A DNA stretch of 50,147 nucleotides, taken from an uncultured bacterium (GTDB lineage Bacteria > Verrucomicrobiota > Kiritimatiellia > CAIKKV01 > CAIYGI01). Position 1 is the first letter of the stretch; the number at the start of each line of letters is the position of its first letter. The stretch covers positions 1 to 50,147 of the forward strand of contig CAIYGI010000154.1 of the NCBI GenBank assembly GCA_903925685.1. The letters run 5' to 3'. The position numbers and the translations under genes are program-made. Of this stretch, positions 2,001-47,654 are shown piece by piece. Below the pieces are notes generated by a model. The model was not told where the DNA came from and ran no database searches. It was given only the letters and a program-made list of their open reading frames with translations.

Positions 2001-2024
2001 AAGATGAATGATGAACGATGAACG
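2001..2024. repeat. short heptad tract, AACGATG type
   Basis: About three units of AA(C/T)GATG start three bases after the MazF-like stop. The same heptad forms the inverted repeats around the S23-type gene at 5023-5477. Confidence 0.7.
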
Positions 2025-3477: not shown

Positions 3478-3905
3478 TCAGTCCTCCTGATCCGTCGCAG
3501 GAATTCCCCGGGTCTGAGAATCTCAATACCGTAGCCGCGGAGTTCCGGCTCCCGAAAATCCCTCACGTTGTGCGTCACAATCGCTTCAGCTCCAAAATTA
3601 GCGGCACATTCGAAAACCATGTTGTCGTTCTCATCCTTCAAGTTCGGCCGCAGGTTAAAGTAGACGGGCACCTCTGTGCCGTAATGAGCTAGCGCCGCGA
3701 GAATCGCAGCGGCCTGTTTCCTAGTCAACGGCACGGCCCGCGTCGCGACAGTTGCCATTACGCTGGCCTGGTATTCGAGATAAAGAGGCACGGACACCCC
3801 AAATCTAAACCTGCCGTGCGATATCTCGGAGAGTATCGCGAAACTCGCTCCCCGCCGGCTACGCACGGCCGCAACCCATACGCATGTGTCGATCACGACT
3901 CTCAT
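3474..3905 (-). CDS. PIN-domain toxin (COG1569-like)
   Basis: A 143-residue PIN ribonuclease: MRVVIDTCVWVAAVRS gives the first aspartate, LYLEYQASV an acidic helix residue, LKDENDNMVFECA and AIVTHNVRDF the later acidic residues. All expected catalytic positions are visible, so the toxin looks active. It belongs to the putative PIN toxin group with a long loop before the NDN motif. It is upstream of its RHH antitoxin. Its promoter region carries two copies of a 10-bp direct repeat, suggesting autoregulation. Confidence 0.8.
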   Translation of the reverse strand: MRVVIDTCVWVAAVRSRRGASFAILSEISHGRFRFGVSVPLYLEYQASVMATVATRAVPLTRKQAAAILAALAHYGTEVPVYFNLRPNLKDENDNMVFECAANFGAEAIVTHNVRDFREPELRGYGIEILRPGEFLRRIRRTE

Positions 3906-4318: not shown

Positions 4319-4346
4319 TTGAACTGTGGGAACCCACTGTTATGAT
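4319..4346 (+). promoter_or_regulatory. promoter with inverted-repeat operator of AbrB antitoxin 2
   Basis: TTGAAC (4319-4324), 16 bp, TATGAT (4341-4346). The GTGGG-AA-CCCAC element (4326-4337) is identical to copy 1 and again fills the spacer, while the -35 box has drifted. Conservation of the symmetric part supports a binding site. Confidence 0.55.
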
Positions 4347-4376
4347 GGCGGTACAACTTTCTTACAGGAGATAGCC

Positions 4377-4652
4377 ATGAGTACGATGGAAGTCACGCGC
4401 ATGTCCTCCAAGGGCCAGGTGGTCATCCCTGGCTCCATACGGAGCAGTCTGGGGATCAAAAGCGGGACCAAATTTGCCGTCATCACGGATGGCGAGAGTA
4501 TCTTGATGAAGCCGATGGAGTCCCCGAAACTGGCCGCGTTCAAAGAACTTATTGCCGAGAGCCGGGCCTGCGTACGCAGCACCGGGTTGACGCTATCCGA
4601 TGTACCCAAGGCGATTCGGAGAGTCCGCGATGCAAATCGTTATAGACGCTAA
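4377..4652 (+). CDS. AbrB/MazE-type antitoxin, copy 2
   Basis: A 91-residue paralogue of the protein at 272-547, differing at three positions (Ile4 to Met, one Arg to Ser, one Lys to Arg). It has the same SSKGQVVIPGSIR fold signature, the same AGGAG-preceded start and the same overlap with a broken PIN frame. Both copies stay open, so the antitoxin may still be selected, for instance as a repressor or to counter related PIN toxins elsewhere. That role is inference. Confidence 0.85.
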   Translation: MSTMEVTRMSSKGQVVIPGSIRSSLGIKSGTKFAVITDGESILMKPMESPKLAAFKELIAESRACVRSTGLTLSDVPKAIRRVRDANRYRR

Positions 4653-4946: not shown

Positions 4947-5020
4947 ATCACGGCATTGTATATCCGTGCGCTCAGGCAATTCGTTTGCGTTTTTCCCCCG
5001 CATCGCGCATTATTCCGCCA
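4947..5020. repeat. 74-bp dispersed repeat, copy B
   Basis: Matches 1268-1343. It ends two bases before the AACGATG heptad tract that forms the left arm of the S23-type cassette. Confidence 0.75.
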
Positions 5021-5022
5021 CG

Positions 5023-5059
5023 TGATGAACGATGAACGATGAATGATGAACGATGAATG
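5023..5059. repeat. left heptad arm of S23-type cassette
   Basis: Units of AA(C/T)GATG. Positions 5028-5057 (four heptads plus AA) are a perfect 30-bp reverse complement of 5448-5477. The start codon of the enclosed gene (5053) lies inside this arm. Confidence 0.95.
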
Positions 5060-5427
5060 CGGAAAAACAGAAACCTTGGGATTTGAAGGAGCGGCTGAAG
5101 GAGTATTCGCTCCGAATTATCCGGATGTATTGCTGTTTGCCGAGAGCGGACGTGGCCCATGTCCTGGGGAAGCAAGTGCTGCGAAGCGGAACGTCAGTGG
5201 GAGCGCACCATCGGGAGGCGTCCCGGGCGCGATCCACGGCCGAGTTCATCAGCAAGATGGAGGGCGGCCTGCAGGAGTTGGATGAGACCGCATACTGGCT
5301 GGAACTGCTGGTCGGCAGCAAAACCGTTCCGCCAGACGAGATGCAAGGGCTGTTTGACGAAACGGAAGAACTCATAGCAATCTTCACCGCTTCCGTCATT
5401 ACCGTGAAAAAAAGGAAACAGCAATGA
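5053..5427 (+). CDS. S23-type four-helix-bundle protein (23S rRNA intervening-sequence family)
   Basis: A 124-residue helical protein with the family signature: RLKEYSLRIIRMYCCLP, GKQVLRSGTSVGAHHREA, RARSTAEFISKMEGGLQELD, ETAYWLELLV. These proteins were first found encoded in intervening sequences of bacterial 23S rRNA and are structurally related to Avd of diversity-generating retroelements. They form basic pentamers; their function is not settled. The ATG lies inside a 30-bp arm that is exactly repeated, inverted, 20 nt after the stop. Transcription across the unit would give an RNA with a 30-bp terminal stem, as in true rRNA intervening sequences, but here next to carB. No Shine-Dalgarno site is visible. 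Confidence 0.85.
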   Translation: MNAEKQKPWDLKERLKEYSLRIIRMYCCLPRADVAHVLGKQVLRSGTSVGAHHREASRARSTAEFISKMEGGLQELDETAYWLELLVGSKTVPPDEMQGLFDETEELIAIFTASVITVKKRKQQ

Positions 5428-5447
5428 AATCGTCTTTCTTTAGTTTC

Positions 5448-5477
5448 TTCATCGTTCATCATTCATCGTTCATCGTT
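5448..5477. repeat. right heptad arm of S23-type cassette
   Basis: Perfect inverted copy of 5028-5057, consisting of TTCATCG/TTCATCA heptads. It ends 8 bp before the carB ATG and thus forms the whole carB leader. Confidence 0.95.
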
Positions 5478-5485
5478 TGATTAAA

Positions 5486-8400
5486 ATGCCAAAAAGAACC
5501 GATATTAAGAAGGTCATGCTGATCGGCTCGGGGCCGATCGTGATCGGTCAGGCCTGCGAGTTCGACTACTCTGGCGTACAGGCATGCAAGGCGCTGCGCG
5601 AAGAGGGCTACGAGGTGGTGCTGGTCAACAGCAATCCGGCCACGATCATGACCGATCCGGAGTTCGCCGACCGCACCTACATCGAACCGCTGACCTGCGA
5701 TATTCTGCGCGAGATCATCCGACGCGAGCGGCCAGACGCGCTGCTGCCGACGCTGGGCGGACAGACGGCGCTCAACCTGGCGATCGAACTCTGGGACAAG
5801 GGCATTCTCCAGCGTTATGGCGTGGAGATGATCGGCGCCAGCGCCGAGGCGATCCGCAAGGCCGAGGATCGGCAACTGTTCAAGCAGGCCATGATCAAGA
5901 TCGGTCTCGAAGTTCCGGTCAGCGGCGTGGCGCACACCATCGAGGAAGCGCGCCTGGTGCGCGATACGATCGGACGCTATCCGTTGATCATCCGTCCGGG
6001 CTTCACCCTCGGCGGCACCGGCGGCGGGATTGCCTACAACGAGGCCGATTTCGACGAGATCAGCCAGCGCGGTATTTTTTACAGCCCGACTTCCGAGATC
6101 CTGATCGAGGAGTCGGTGCTGGGCTGGAAGGAATTCGAACTCGAGGTCATGCGCGACCGCAAGGACAACTGCGTGATCGTGTGTTCGATCGAAAACGTGG
6201 ATCCCATGGGTGTGCATACCGGCGACAGCATCACTGTGGCGCCGGCGCAGACGCTCACCGACCGCGAGTATCAGCGCATGCGCGACAGTTCGCTGGCCGT
6301 GATGCGCGAAATCGGCGTCGACACCGGCGGATCGAACGTACAGTGGGCGATCGATCCCGCCAACGGGCGCATGGTGATCGTCGAAATGAACCCGCGCGTT
6401 TCGCGATCGAGCGCGCTGGCCTCCAAGGCCACCGGCTTCCCGATCGCCAAGATCGCCGCCAAACTCGCCATTGGATACACCCTGGACGAGCTGCGCAACG
6501 ACATCACGCGCGAAACGCCCGCCTGCTTCGAACCGACAATCGATTACGTTGTCGTCAAGATCCCCCGCTTCACCTTTGAAAAGTTTCCCGGCATCGACAC
6601 CACGCTCGGCACGCAGATGAAGTCCGTGGGCGAGGCCATGAGCATCGGCAAGACCTTCAAGCAGTCGCTGCAGAAGGCCTGCCGTTCGCTCGAAACGGGC
6701 CGTTTCGGTTTCGGCGCGGATGGCAAGGATGCCGGTTGCGAGGCCCTGACCGACCAGCAATTGGAGGCCGAACTGAAACGGCCCAATGCCGAGCGCCTGT
6801 TCCAGGTGCGCGCCGCCTTGCGGCGCGGCTGGACGGTGGAAAGATTGTTTGGCTTGACCAAAATCGACCCCTGGTTCCTGCGCCAATTCGAAGAACTGGC
6901 CGCCTACGAGGATGAAATCCGCGGCGCCGGTTCTCTCGAAGGGCTGGTGCGCGATGCGCCGCTTTTCCGGCAGGCCAAGCAATTCGGCTATTCCGACCGG
7001 CAGATATCGTGGCTGCTGAACACGCAGGAGGCTGCGGTGCGCGCGGCGCGCGAAAAGACGGGGTTGCTGCCGGTGTACGGACTGGTTGACACCTGTGCGG
7101 CCGAATTCGCGGCCTTGACGCCTTACTATTATTCGAGTTACGGCATGCTGGACGAGGTGCGTCCGAGCGCGGGCAGGAAGATCATGATCCTGGGCGGCGG
7201 ACCGAACCGGATCGGGCAGGGGATCGAATTCGACTACTGCTGCGTGCATGCCGCCTTTGCGCTGCATGATGCCGGCTTCGAGACCATCATGGTCAACAGC
7301 AACCCGGAAACGGTCAGCACCGACTACGACACCAGCGACAGGCTTTACTTCGAGCCGCTGACGCTGGAGGACGTGCTCAGCATCTACCGCCGCGAACAGT
7401 GCGAAGGGGTGATCGTGCAGTTCGGCGGACAGACGCCGCTCAAACTGGCCAAGGGGCTGGAGGCCAACGGCGTTCACATCATCGGCACATCGCCCGCCAA
7501 CATCGAAGTGGCGGAGGACCGCAATCTTTTCCAACTGATGCTGCGCCGCCTTGGTCTGCGCCAGCCGGACAACGGCATCGCCACGAACGCGCTCCAGGCC
7601 GAGGCGATCGCCGAGAAAATCGGCTATCCGGTGCTGATGCGGCCTTCGTTCGTTCTCGGCGGGCGCGCCATGGTGATCGTGTACAACGTCGAGATGCTGC
7701 GCCGCTACATGGCGGAGGCGGTGCTGGTCTCCGATGACCGTCCGGTGCTGGTGGACCGCTATCTTGAGAATGCCGTCGAGGTGGATGTGGACTGCATCTC
7801 CGACGGAGAGACTTCGGTGATCGGCGCGATCATGGAGCACGTCGAACTGGCCGGCATTCACTCCGGCGACAGCGCCTGTTCGATTCCTTCGCCGACGCTG
7901 ACAGAGGATGTCAAAAAAGAGATCCGGCGTATGACGCTGGCGATGGCCAAAGAACTCCAGGTCTGCGGACTGATGAACGTACAGTATGCCATCAAGGCCG
8001 GCGAGGTTTATGTGCTCGAGGTGAACCCTCGCGCTTCGCGGACCGTGCCTTTTGTGAGCAAGGCGATCGGCGTGCCGCTGGCCAAACTGGCGGCGCTCGT
8101 GATGGCCGGCCACAAACTGAAGGATTTGGGCTTCACCAGCGAGGCGCATCCGCGCCACTACTCGGTCAAGGAGGCGGTTTTCCCATTTGCCCGCTTCCCC
8201 GGCGCCGATGTGGTGCTGAGTCCGGAGATGAAGTCCACCGGCGAGGTCATGGGCATAGACAGTTCCGCCGAAATGGCCTTTCTCAAAAGCCAGGTGGCCG
8301 CGGGCAACCCGCTGCCGCTCTCCGGCAACGTTTTCCTGAGTATTCGCGAAGAGGACAAGCAGGAGGTGATTCCTCTGGCGCAAAGGCTGACCAAACTGGG

Positions 8401-8773
8401 GTACGGCATTTATGCGACCGCCGGCACCAGCACGCTGCTGCGTAACAACGGCATCAAGACCCAGGCGGTGTTCCGCATTTCCGACGGCCGTCCGAACGTG
8501 ATCGATCTGATCGAGGAGAAGCAGATTCAGTGGATCGTGAACACCCCATCCAGCGGCGCCACGCCGCGCATGGACGAGGTGCGCATGCGATCGCACGCGG
8601 TGATCCGCGGCATTCCGATCACGACCACGATCCACGGCTGGCGCTATGCCCTGGGCGGTCTCGAATGCATGCGCCAGGCCGGACGCATGGAAGTGTGCAG
8701 CATACAGGAATACCATCGCCATTCCCCGCGTCTGAAACTTCCCCGCCTCGCCGCCGAGGGTATGCGAGTCTGA
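5486..8773 (+). CDS. carB: carbamoyl-phosphate synthase large subunit
   Basis: A 1095-residue protein close to the usual 1070-1080. It makes carbamoyl phosphate from ammonia (supplied by CarA), bicarbonate and two ATP, for pyrimidine and arginine synthesis. It opens [20 protein letters not shown] and [13 protein letters not shown], the canonical CarB N-terminus. Two ATP-grasp halves follow (about 1-400 and 560-930), each with its own GGxPNRIGQG- or GSGPIVIGQ-type opening and MNPRxSRSSAL or [11 protein letters not shown] motif, then a C-terminal MGS-like regulatory domain (about 940-1095). I chose ATG 5486 because it gives the conserved N-terminus; the upstream TTG lies in the heptad arm. carA is not in the window, and no Shine-Dalgarno site precedes the gene. 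Confidence 0.97.
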
Positions 8774-46473: not shown

Positions 46474-46629
46474 CAGAAGACAGGAGTCAGGATTCAGAAT
46501 GAAATACCAAAGCGTCTACCATGCCATGAGGAAAGACGAAGGCCAGAAAACGGAGGTGAATGAAACATTTTTTCATCCCAAGTTCCTCAATTAAGCATTC
46601 TGACTTCTGGATTCTGACTCCTGACTTCT
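46474..46629. repeat. facing heptad tracts between prmC and the HAD gene
   Basis: Left tract 46474-46501: CAGAAGA CAGGAGT CAGGATT CAGAATG. Right tract 46596-46629: CATTCT GACTTCT GGATTCT GACTCCT GACTTCT. They align as inverted repeats with about 24 of 27 matches if one heptad is gapped, enclosing about 95 bp without a gene. Confidence 0.88.
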
Positions 46630-47312: not shown

Positions 47313-47654
47313 AGAATTCAGAAGTCAGAATTCAGAAGTCAGAATAATGCTTAATATTTTGAAACCCTTTCGACTAGCATATCAGGCGTGAGTCATCATC
47401 ACTATTGGCAACTGCACTGGGAGGTATTATAGTCATTTCCTTCATGTACGAAAGAGGGAATCGCAAAAGCGGCCTGAATGGGCGCATTTGCAAATCGTTA
47501 CCTGAATTTGGGAAGCAATGCAGAAGCGAACCGCGATTTTGGAGGGACGACCTCCGTGGCGTCCGTGAATCGGCGAAAGCGGGAGGAGCGGACGGGACAG
47601 AGCCCGTCCCTCCAGAAGGTTGTTCTGACTTCTGAATTCTGACTCCTGAGTTCT
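47313..47654. repeat. facing heptad tracts before ilvD
   Basis: Left arm 47313-47344: AGAATTC AGAAGTC AGAATTC AGAAGTC AGAA. Right arm 47623-47654 is its reverse complement at 30 of 32 positions. They enclose 278 bp without a gene but with a REP-like hairpin (47541-47613). This gene-free stretch otherwise shows nothing. Confidence 0.93.
47541..47613. repeat. REP-like hairpin element
   Basis: GGAGGGACG (47541-47549) pairs with CGTCCCTCC (47605-47613). Inside lies a second stem, GACGGG-ACAGAG-CCCGTC (47591-47608). A GC-rich nested palindrome in an intergenic space is typical of REP elements. Confidence 0.6.

Follow-up and report, generated by a model that had tools for sequence, protein, structure and literature searches.

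The unit at positions 5023–5477 of the window (the whole 50,147-nt stretch of bacterial DNA that was analysed) is probably a compact mobile cassette whose ends are inverted tracts of a tandem heptad and whose sole gene encodes an S23 protein, the four-helix-bundle family also called 23S rRNA-intervening-sequence protein (IVP). Its sequence supports the view that it is related to the intervening sequences (IVSs) of 23S rRNA but free-standing; because it lies outside rRNA, it is not classed as a member of that group. Below, G000 is the genome of the window, which is 96% complete, and G001 is a sister species of the same genus.

The S23 unit upstream of carB

We examined the unit and its immediate neighbors (Table 1) and found the arrangement given in the preliminary description. 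The two arms are 100% complementary over 30 nt, with 390 nt between them, and the ATG of the S23 gene falls inside the last heptad of the left arm. Profile search bore out the family assignment, matching residues 16–111 of the ORF to PF05635 (23S_rRNA_IVP) at E = 1.6e-14; 2RLD is a PDB relative (E = 1.4e-20). Between the arms only this ORF has a family match, and neither a transposase nor a reverse transcriptase gene is encoded within the unit. The right arm starts 21 nt past the S23 stop, and the carB ATG stands 9 nt past its end, so that the arm is the carB leader, as had been described; the other neighbor is a HicB-like gene. An Rfam search of the window gave a single tRNA as its sole match and no rRNA, which agrees with the earlier placement of the unit outside rRNA. 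The RNA of 5015–5490 is predicted to fold at −188 kcal/mol (z = −5.5 versus shuffles) with a long terminal stem. The unit carries terminal inverted repeats, a criterion for classical insertion sequences, and an intergenic tandem 7-mer tract, a criterion for STRR-like repeats.

Table 1. Features of the window discussed in the text
Feature	Position	Strand	Remarks
Solo tract of the unit's heptad (GATGAAC/T)	2001–2024	+	Unpaired
Left (upstream) tract	5023–5057	+	Five heptads GATGAAC/T, period 7; G-rich strand is the coding strand
Left inverted arm	5028–5057	+	Perfect, 30 nt, inside the left tract
S23/IVP gene	5053–5427	+	124 aa; four-helix bundle; PF05635
Right (downstream) tract	5448–5477	−	Perfect reverse complement of 5028–5057
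carB	5486–8773	+	Neighbor outside the element; carbamoyl-phosphate synthase large chain, named from translated sequence
Gene-less inverted pair, CAGGAGT/CAGAATT	46474–46629	+	Spacer 97 nt; other heptad family than GATGAAC/T
Second inverted pair, CAGAATT/CAGGAGT	47313–47649		Spacer 278 nt; S23 not recognized

G001 carries an S23 gene with arms at the same place before carB, and arm units have been gained and lost between the two species. The window copy is therefore old and long-resident, and a fresh insertion at carB is ruled out. The preliminary description had named an old fixed feature shared by relatives at carB as the contrary case; for the window copy, G001 does share the site. Signs of movement and replacement are seen elsewhere (below).

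The window also holds near-identical duplicated ORFs for a MazE-like antitoxin (221–547 and 4326–4652, 108 aa each), in a stretch with abundant HicB-like and PIN toxin-antitoxin genes.

Flanks of S23 genes across phyla

The arrangement, first described at one gene, recurs at other S23 genes. The check that the preliminary description set for itself, whether such genes lack flanking inverted repeats, comes out in its favor. PF05635 has 17 matches in G000, 10 of them over the curated cut-off, and all ten of these have short-period tracts around them that are inverted or oppositely oriented; the weak, longer matches below the cut-off in G000 have no such tract setting. At one G000 locus, L006, both flanks carry very long tracts whose orientation is mixed, and its automatic score is low. 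Each of the ten genes has its own unit (TTAGGCTG, CGGTGAGT, GAGGTCA, AGGTGGT, AGGTGGA, GATGAAC, CGAACAT and others). The link that had been drawn between S23 and the repeat tracts of the genome thus holds in the form of a free-standing element with heptad arms, but the GATGAAC unit itself is not shared.

We then scored the flanks of S23 loci at which these were usable, with orientation corrected, from the same phylum, G001, other phyla and plasmids (PVC bacteria, Cyanobacteria, Chloroflexota, Calditrichota, Bacteroidota, Spirochaetota and Bacillota). Among these 108 loci, which are partly non-independent in that they include orthologous groups, are dominated by one broad clade and come mostly from metagenome assemblies, 83 (77%) reach an inverted flank score of 20 or more, and a quarter fall below 20. 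The same score is reached by 4.3% of cross-locus pairs of left and right flanks and by 0.9% of shuffled flanks, and the maximum for control PIN-domain genes of G000 is 16. Scored in direct orientation, 17% of S23 flanks reach at least 20, with values up to 124 at some loci; some tracts are therefore also directly repeated.

At the 83 inverted-flank loci, the best among periods from 3 to 13 is 7 in 72 cases and 8 in the other 11. The left arm ends a median of 9 nt before the S23 start codon and the right arm starts a median of 2 nt after the stop; and G exceeds C on the coding strand of the left arm at 73 loci. Median tract lengths are 4.7 and 4.6 units. The repeat unit is private to each locus and matched between its two arms. 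Perfect arms of AATTCGT or AATTCGC heptads occur at S23 genes on Nostoc and Dolichospermum plasmids, and the pattern was also found in Chloroflexota, Treponema, Bernardetia, Calditrichota and Phycisphaerales, more weakly in Bacillota.

On plasmids (loci L365, L373, L376 and L364, L366, L368, L371, L377), S23 genes adjoin cas1 and other cas genes or lie between them, and they also occur within operons of the helicase/methylase, DUF1156/Swt1-HEPN and type I restriction kinds. The presence of S23 genes at cas loci has been noted before (PMC3936711).

Co-evolution of the arms was measured in 120-nt flanks of 103 loci, with no selection on score. For pairs of loci whose proteins are 60–80% identical, the median left-left arm score is 12 (background 9), while the median score of a locus's own left and right arms is 20. 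Own arms match while related arms diverge, and the tracts therefore turn over much faster than the gene and stay complementary; this implies either selection acting on the stem or copying of one arm from the other. Unit sequence likewise changes much faster than the S23 protein. On the protein tree the period switches between 7 and 8 nine times (shuffled mean 9.6), period 8 being scattered, which rules out that the protein dictates unit length. Free switching of period and fast change of the unit speak against a strict pairing in which one protein recognizes one sequence.

Movement, replacement and decay between related genomes

Sequence comparison of related genomes indicates that the S23 element moves or has moved. 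One G000 element (L001) matches two in G001 (L301 and L304) from arm to arm, at 84% and 78% identity over 402–411 bp, with no further match in about 9 kb of surroundings. At a site between polysaccharide-type genes, G000 and G001 carry different S23 elements (L006/L310), between flanks that are 95% and 92% identical. Members of one genus of the window's phylum differ in what precedes a sugar-kinase gene, which may be S23 of type A, S23 of type B or no S23 at all; the two types are 53% identical and have different heptads. At two other sites, where one species has S23, the other has a GxxExxY gene or an antitoxin-PIN pair. One gene pair occurs with and without S23 in G129 and G142, and the heptads of both arms change in concert (GTGACGA versus GTGACAA). 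The S23 genes of G000 are spread over the whole S23 tree.

Decay was also seen. Relative to an S23 element of G000 (C317), G001 (C92) has kept both tracts and deleted most of the gene, so that some 100 nt now separate the tracts; decay of S23 elements therefore accounts for at least some of the gene-less inverted pairs. Upstream of the kinase in a further genome (G163, locus L192), gene-less inverted CACAGATT-type repeats stand where other species have S23.

The compared loci yielded neither a clean empty site at base level nor an established target-site duplication, and transposition was not observed. An apparent S23 insertion at L097, with a 7-bp target-site duplication (TCGCCGG) and an in-frame joined ORF, was rejected because the homologues are two separate adjacent genes.

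Heptad tracts away from S23 genes

The tract at 2001–2024 carries the heptad of the window unit and is unpaired, as the preliminary description had stated; it is one of solo tracts of this heptad at about ten other places in G000. The pattern GATGAAYGATGAAYGATGAA occurs 27 times in the G000 genome and its backwards-read version 0 times, so the heptad pattern is not due to chance. Gene-less inverted pairs were common in the 978 kb sampled, and those with the G-rich arm on the left all have spacers below 110 nt, except one of 278 nt. The pair at 46474–46629 is built like the internal-deletion derivative of the S23 element in G001. The pair at 47313–47649 is not taken for an S23 remnant, since visual inspection of its six-frame translation gave nothing S23-like.

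S23 presence predicts tract density only in part. Three S23-poor genomes had 0 tracts in about 80–100 kb sampled each, and G104, with no S23 match, has period-7 tracts at five per 100 kb sampled. One G104 locus (L296) has two gene-less inverted heptad pairs (230–429 and 1988–2152) with similar spacers, which are dispersed miniature elements. At a G000 locus (L317, contig C191), a gene for a 515-aa AAA-ATPase has near-identical hairpins on both sides (3600–3720 and 5370–5520), built of CGAACGT/CGAACAT heptads and in direct orientation relative to each other.

Intergenic period-7 tracts have been described from Nostoc and Xanthomonas (STRR, GGGAATC) and from Beggiatoaceae (TAACTGA), with inverted pairs (70–75 of them in Xanthomonas) and with seven-nt indels between strains; heptads are over-represented in many bacteria, for which polymerase slippage was proposed, with no link to S23 in the passages concerned (PMC4692102, PMC4679880). 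Unlike the STRR-type heptads so described, the tracts studied here are the ends of S23 cassettes, those on Nostoc plasmids included.

The over-representation and the slippage proposed for it would fit a passive origin, in which slippage makes the heptads, template switching perfects inverted pairs, and S23 merely persists in spots that tolerate it. The abundance of gene-less inverted pairs, and the gain and loss of arm units between sister species, would fit as well. We nevertheless think this unlikely: the PIN control genes show no such flanks, the arms stop within a few nt of the S23 start and stop, homology between elements stops at the arms and leaves unrelated flanks, deletion within an S23 element gave rise to at least one gene-less pair, and the spacers of pairs with a G-rich left arm keep to the narrow range given above.

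GxxExxY genes as a second family with inverted short-period flanks

The inverted-tract architecture is not exclusive to S23. Genes of the GxxExxY family (PDDEXK_3, PF13366) often have a similar one, with an inverted flank score of at least 18 at 20 of 27 loci and units other than those of S23 (e.g., GGCGCGGA, AGGCGCAA, ACAGGATTA and CACGGATGA; loci L332, L333 and L334 of G000, and L335–L363), some of these inverted repeats not being tandem tracts. S23 therefore cannot be the sole driver. The sampled arms enclose mainly these two small gene families rather than random genes.

A mover acting in trans, such as a REP-type Y1 transposase or single-strand annealing, could have captured S23 and GxxExxY genes as passengers of the tracts. 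This would account for inverted short-period flanks at so unrelated a family, of nuclease-like fold, for S23 or GxxExxY at one and the same site, and for tracts in G104, which has no S23. We give it little credence. REP-type Y1 transposase (PF01797) has no match at the window locus and two weak matches genome-wide in G000 (C94 and C15), on which ground we rejected it as the mover; a general mover would not be expected to leave mainly two small gene families between the arms, and the units are private to their loci instead of coming from a common pool.

In REPIN/RAYT systems a single gene lies beside short inverted repeats, and gene-less inverted pairs and solo repeats are scattered genome-wide. 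By analogy, S23 units are similar in having one gene by inverted repeats, plus gene-less pairs and solo repeats. They differ in that the gene is S23 rather than a Y1 tyrosine transposase, that the ends are tandem 7/8-mer tracts, and that units vary from locus to locus within one genome.

Relation to rRNA intervening sequences and RNA processing

That the unit shares its plan with true 23S rRNA IVSs, as had been proposed, is upheld by the Coxiella IVS, which has GACAGAT heptads before the S23 ATG, in numbers that vary among strains, and a 28-bp terminal stem, and which RNase III cleaves at the first repeat (PMC4990558). Like the S23-bearing IVSs of Leptospira and Coxiella, the free-standing units have one S23 gene, inverted stem-forming ends and a total length of about 430–500 nt. 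Unlike them, they sit between protein genes outside rRNA, are numerous within a genome, every copy having a heptad or octad of its own, and show presence/absence and replacement between sister genomes. Part of the picture was thus known before, in the Coxiella heptads next to S23; we found no earlier report of S23 cassettes with heptad ends in the open-access literature.

The cassette that we propose would end in two inverted tracts, each with a unit of 7 nt, or sometimes 8, in about 4–5 copies, and would contain almost nothing else besides its gene. By analogy with the Coxiella rRNA element, its arms would form in RNA a long stem cleavable by RNase III, and free-standing units may be cut out of transcripts in the same way. 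Such cutting would limit the harm done by an element in an operon leader such as that of carB.

Processing might also be all that the unit does, an RNase III stem parting the S23 message from its neighbors in a domesticated regulatory insert that is no longer mobile. The strong predicted terminal stem, the excision of the Coxiella element by RNase III within its stem (PMC4990558), the position in operon leaders such as that of carB and the fixation at the carB site in two species all favor such a role, which may hold alongside mobility, and for the window copy. As the whole explanation it is improbable, since it leaves unaccounted for the copies at unrelated sites, the replacement at one site and the solo tracts throughout the genome.

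A possible role for the S23 protein

More speculatively, the S23 protein, a pentameric ring in solved relatives, might bind the tract, each subunit taking about one heptad, whether in single-stranded RNA or DNA or in the stem. Binding might then drive copying and spreading of the element, and solo tracts and gene-less pairs would be its non-autonomous or decayed by-products. One heptad per subunit would be a natural idea, because the tracts have medians of 4.7 and 4.6 units and solved S23 proteins are five-membered. The structure of 2RLD has five chains. Five bundles make up Xcc0516, going by the title of a work that PMC3936711 and PMC10053308 both cite.

Avd of diversity-generating retroelements belongs to the S23 fold family and is a pentamer. 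The structural relationship and homology of the two proteins (PMC10053308) would suit a retroelement in which S23, like Avd, acts in trans for a reverse transcriptase, a link raised in the preliminary description that we consider highly improbable and have dropped, since RVT_1 (PF00078) has no match in the 96% complete G000, which thereby differs from Avd systems, or in the S23-rich G001, G022, G032, G049 and G055.

A bolder version of the cassette reading is that S23 elements form a class of mobile DNA of their own, lacking a transposase, in which a pentameric S23 recognizes some five heptads at both ends, one for each subunit, and creates, homogenizes and disperses the tracts so over-represented in many bacteria, with rRNA IVSs as the special case of a landing in rRNA and the nuclease-like GxxExxY genes as a parallel class. 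We put this forward tentatively, as possible but doubtful.

Significance

To our knowledge, the S23/IVP family has been known for over 30 years without a function. The present results join this family with another puzzle, the over-abundance of 7-nt repeat tracts across bacterial genomes, and heptad-ended S23 cassettes may account for the origin of many of those tracts. The results also give annotators a reading of very common intergenic clutter, among it the S23 genes that lie within CRISPR and restriction operons. If the proposal is true, the sporadic intervening sequences of rRNA would be one landing site of a wider mobile element, and both a definite gene for deletion and a definite nucleic acid for binding tests would be at hand.
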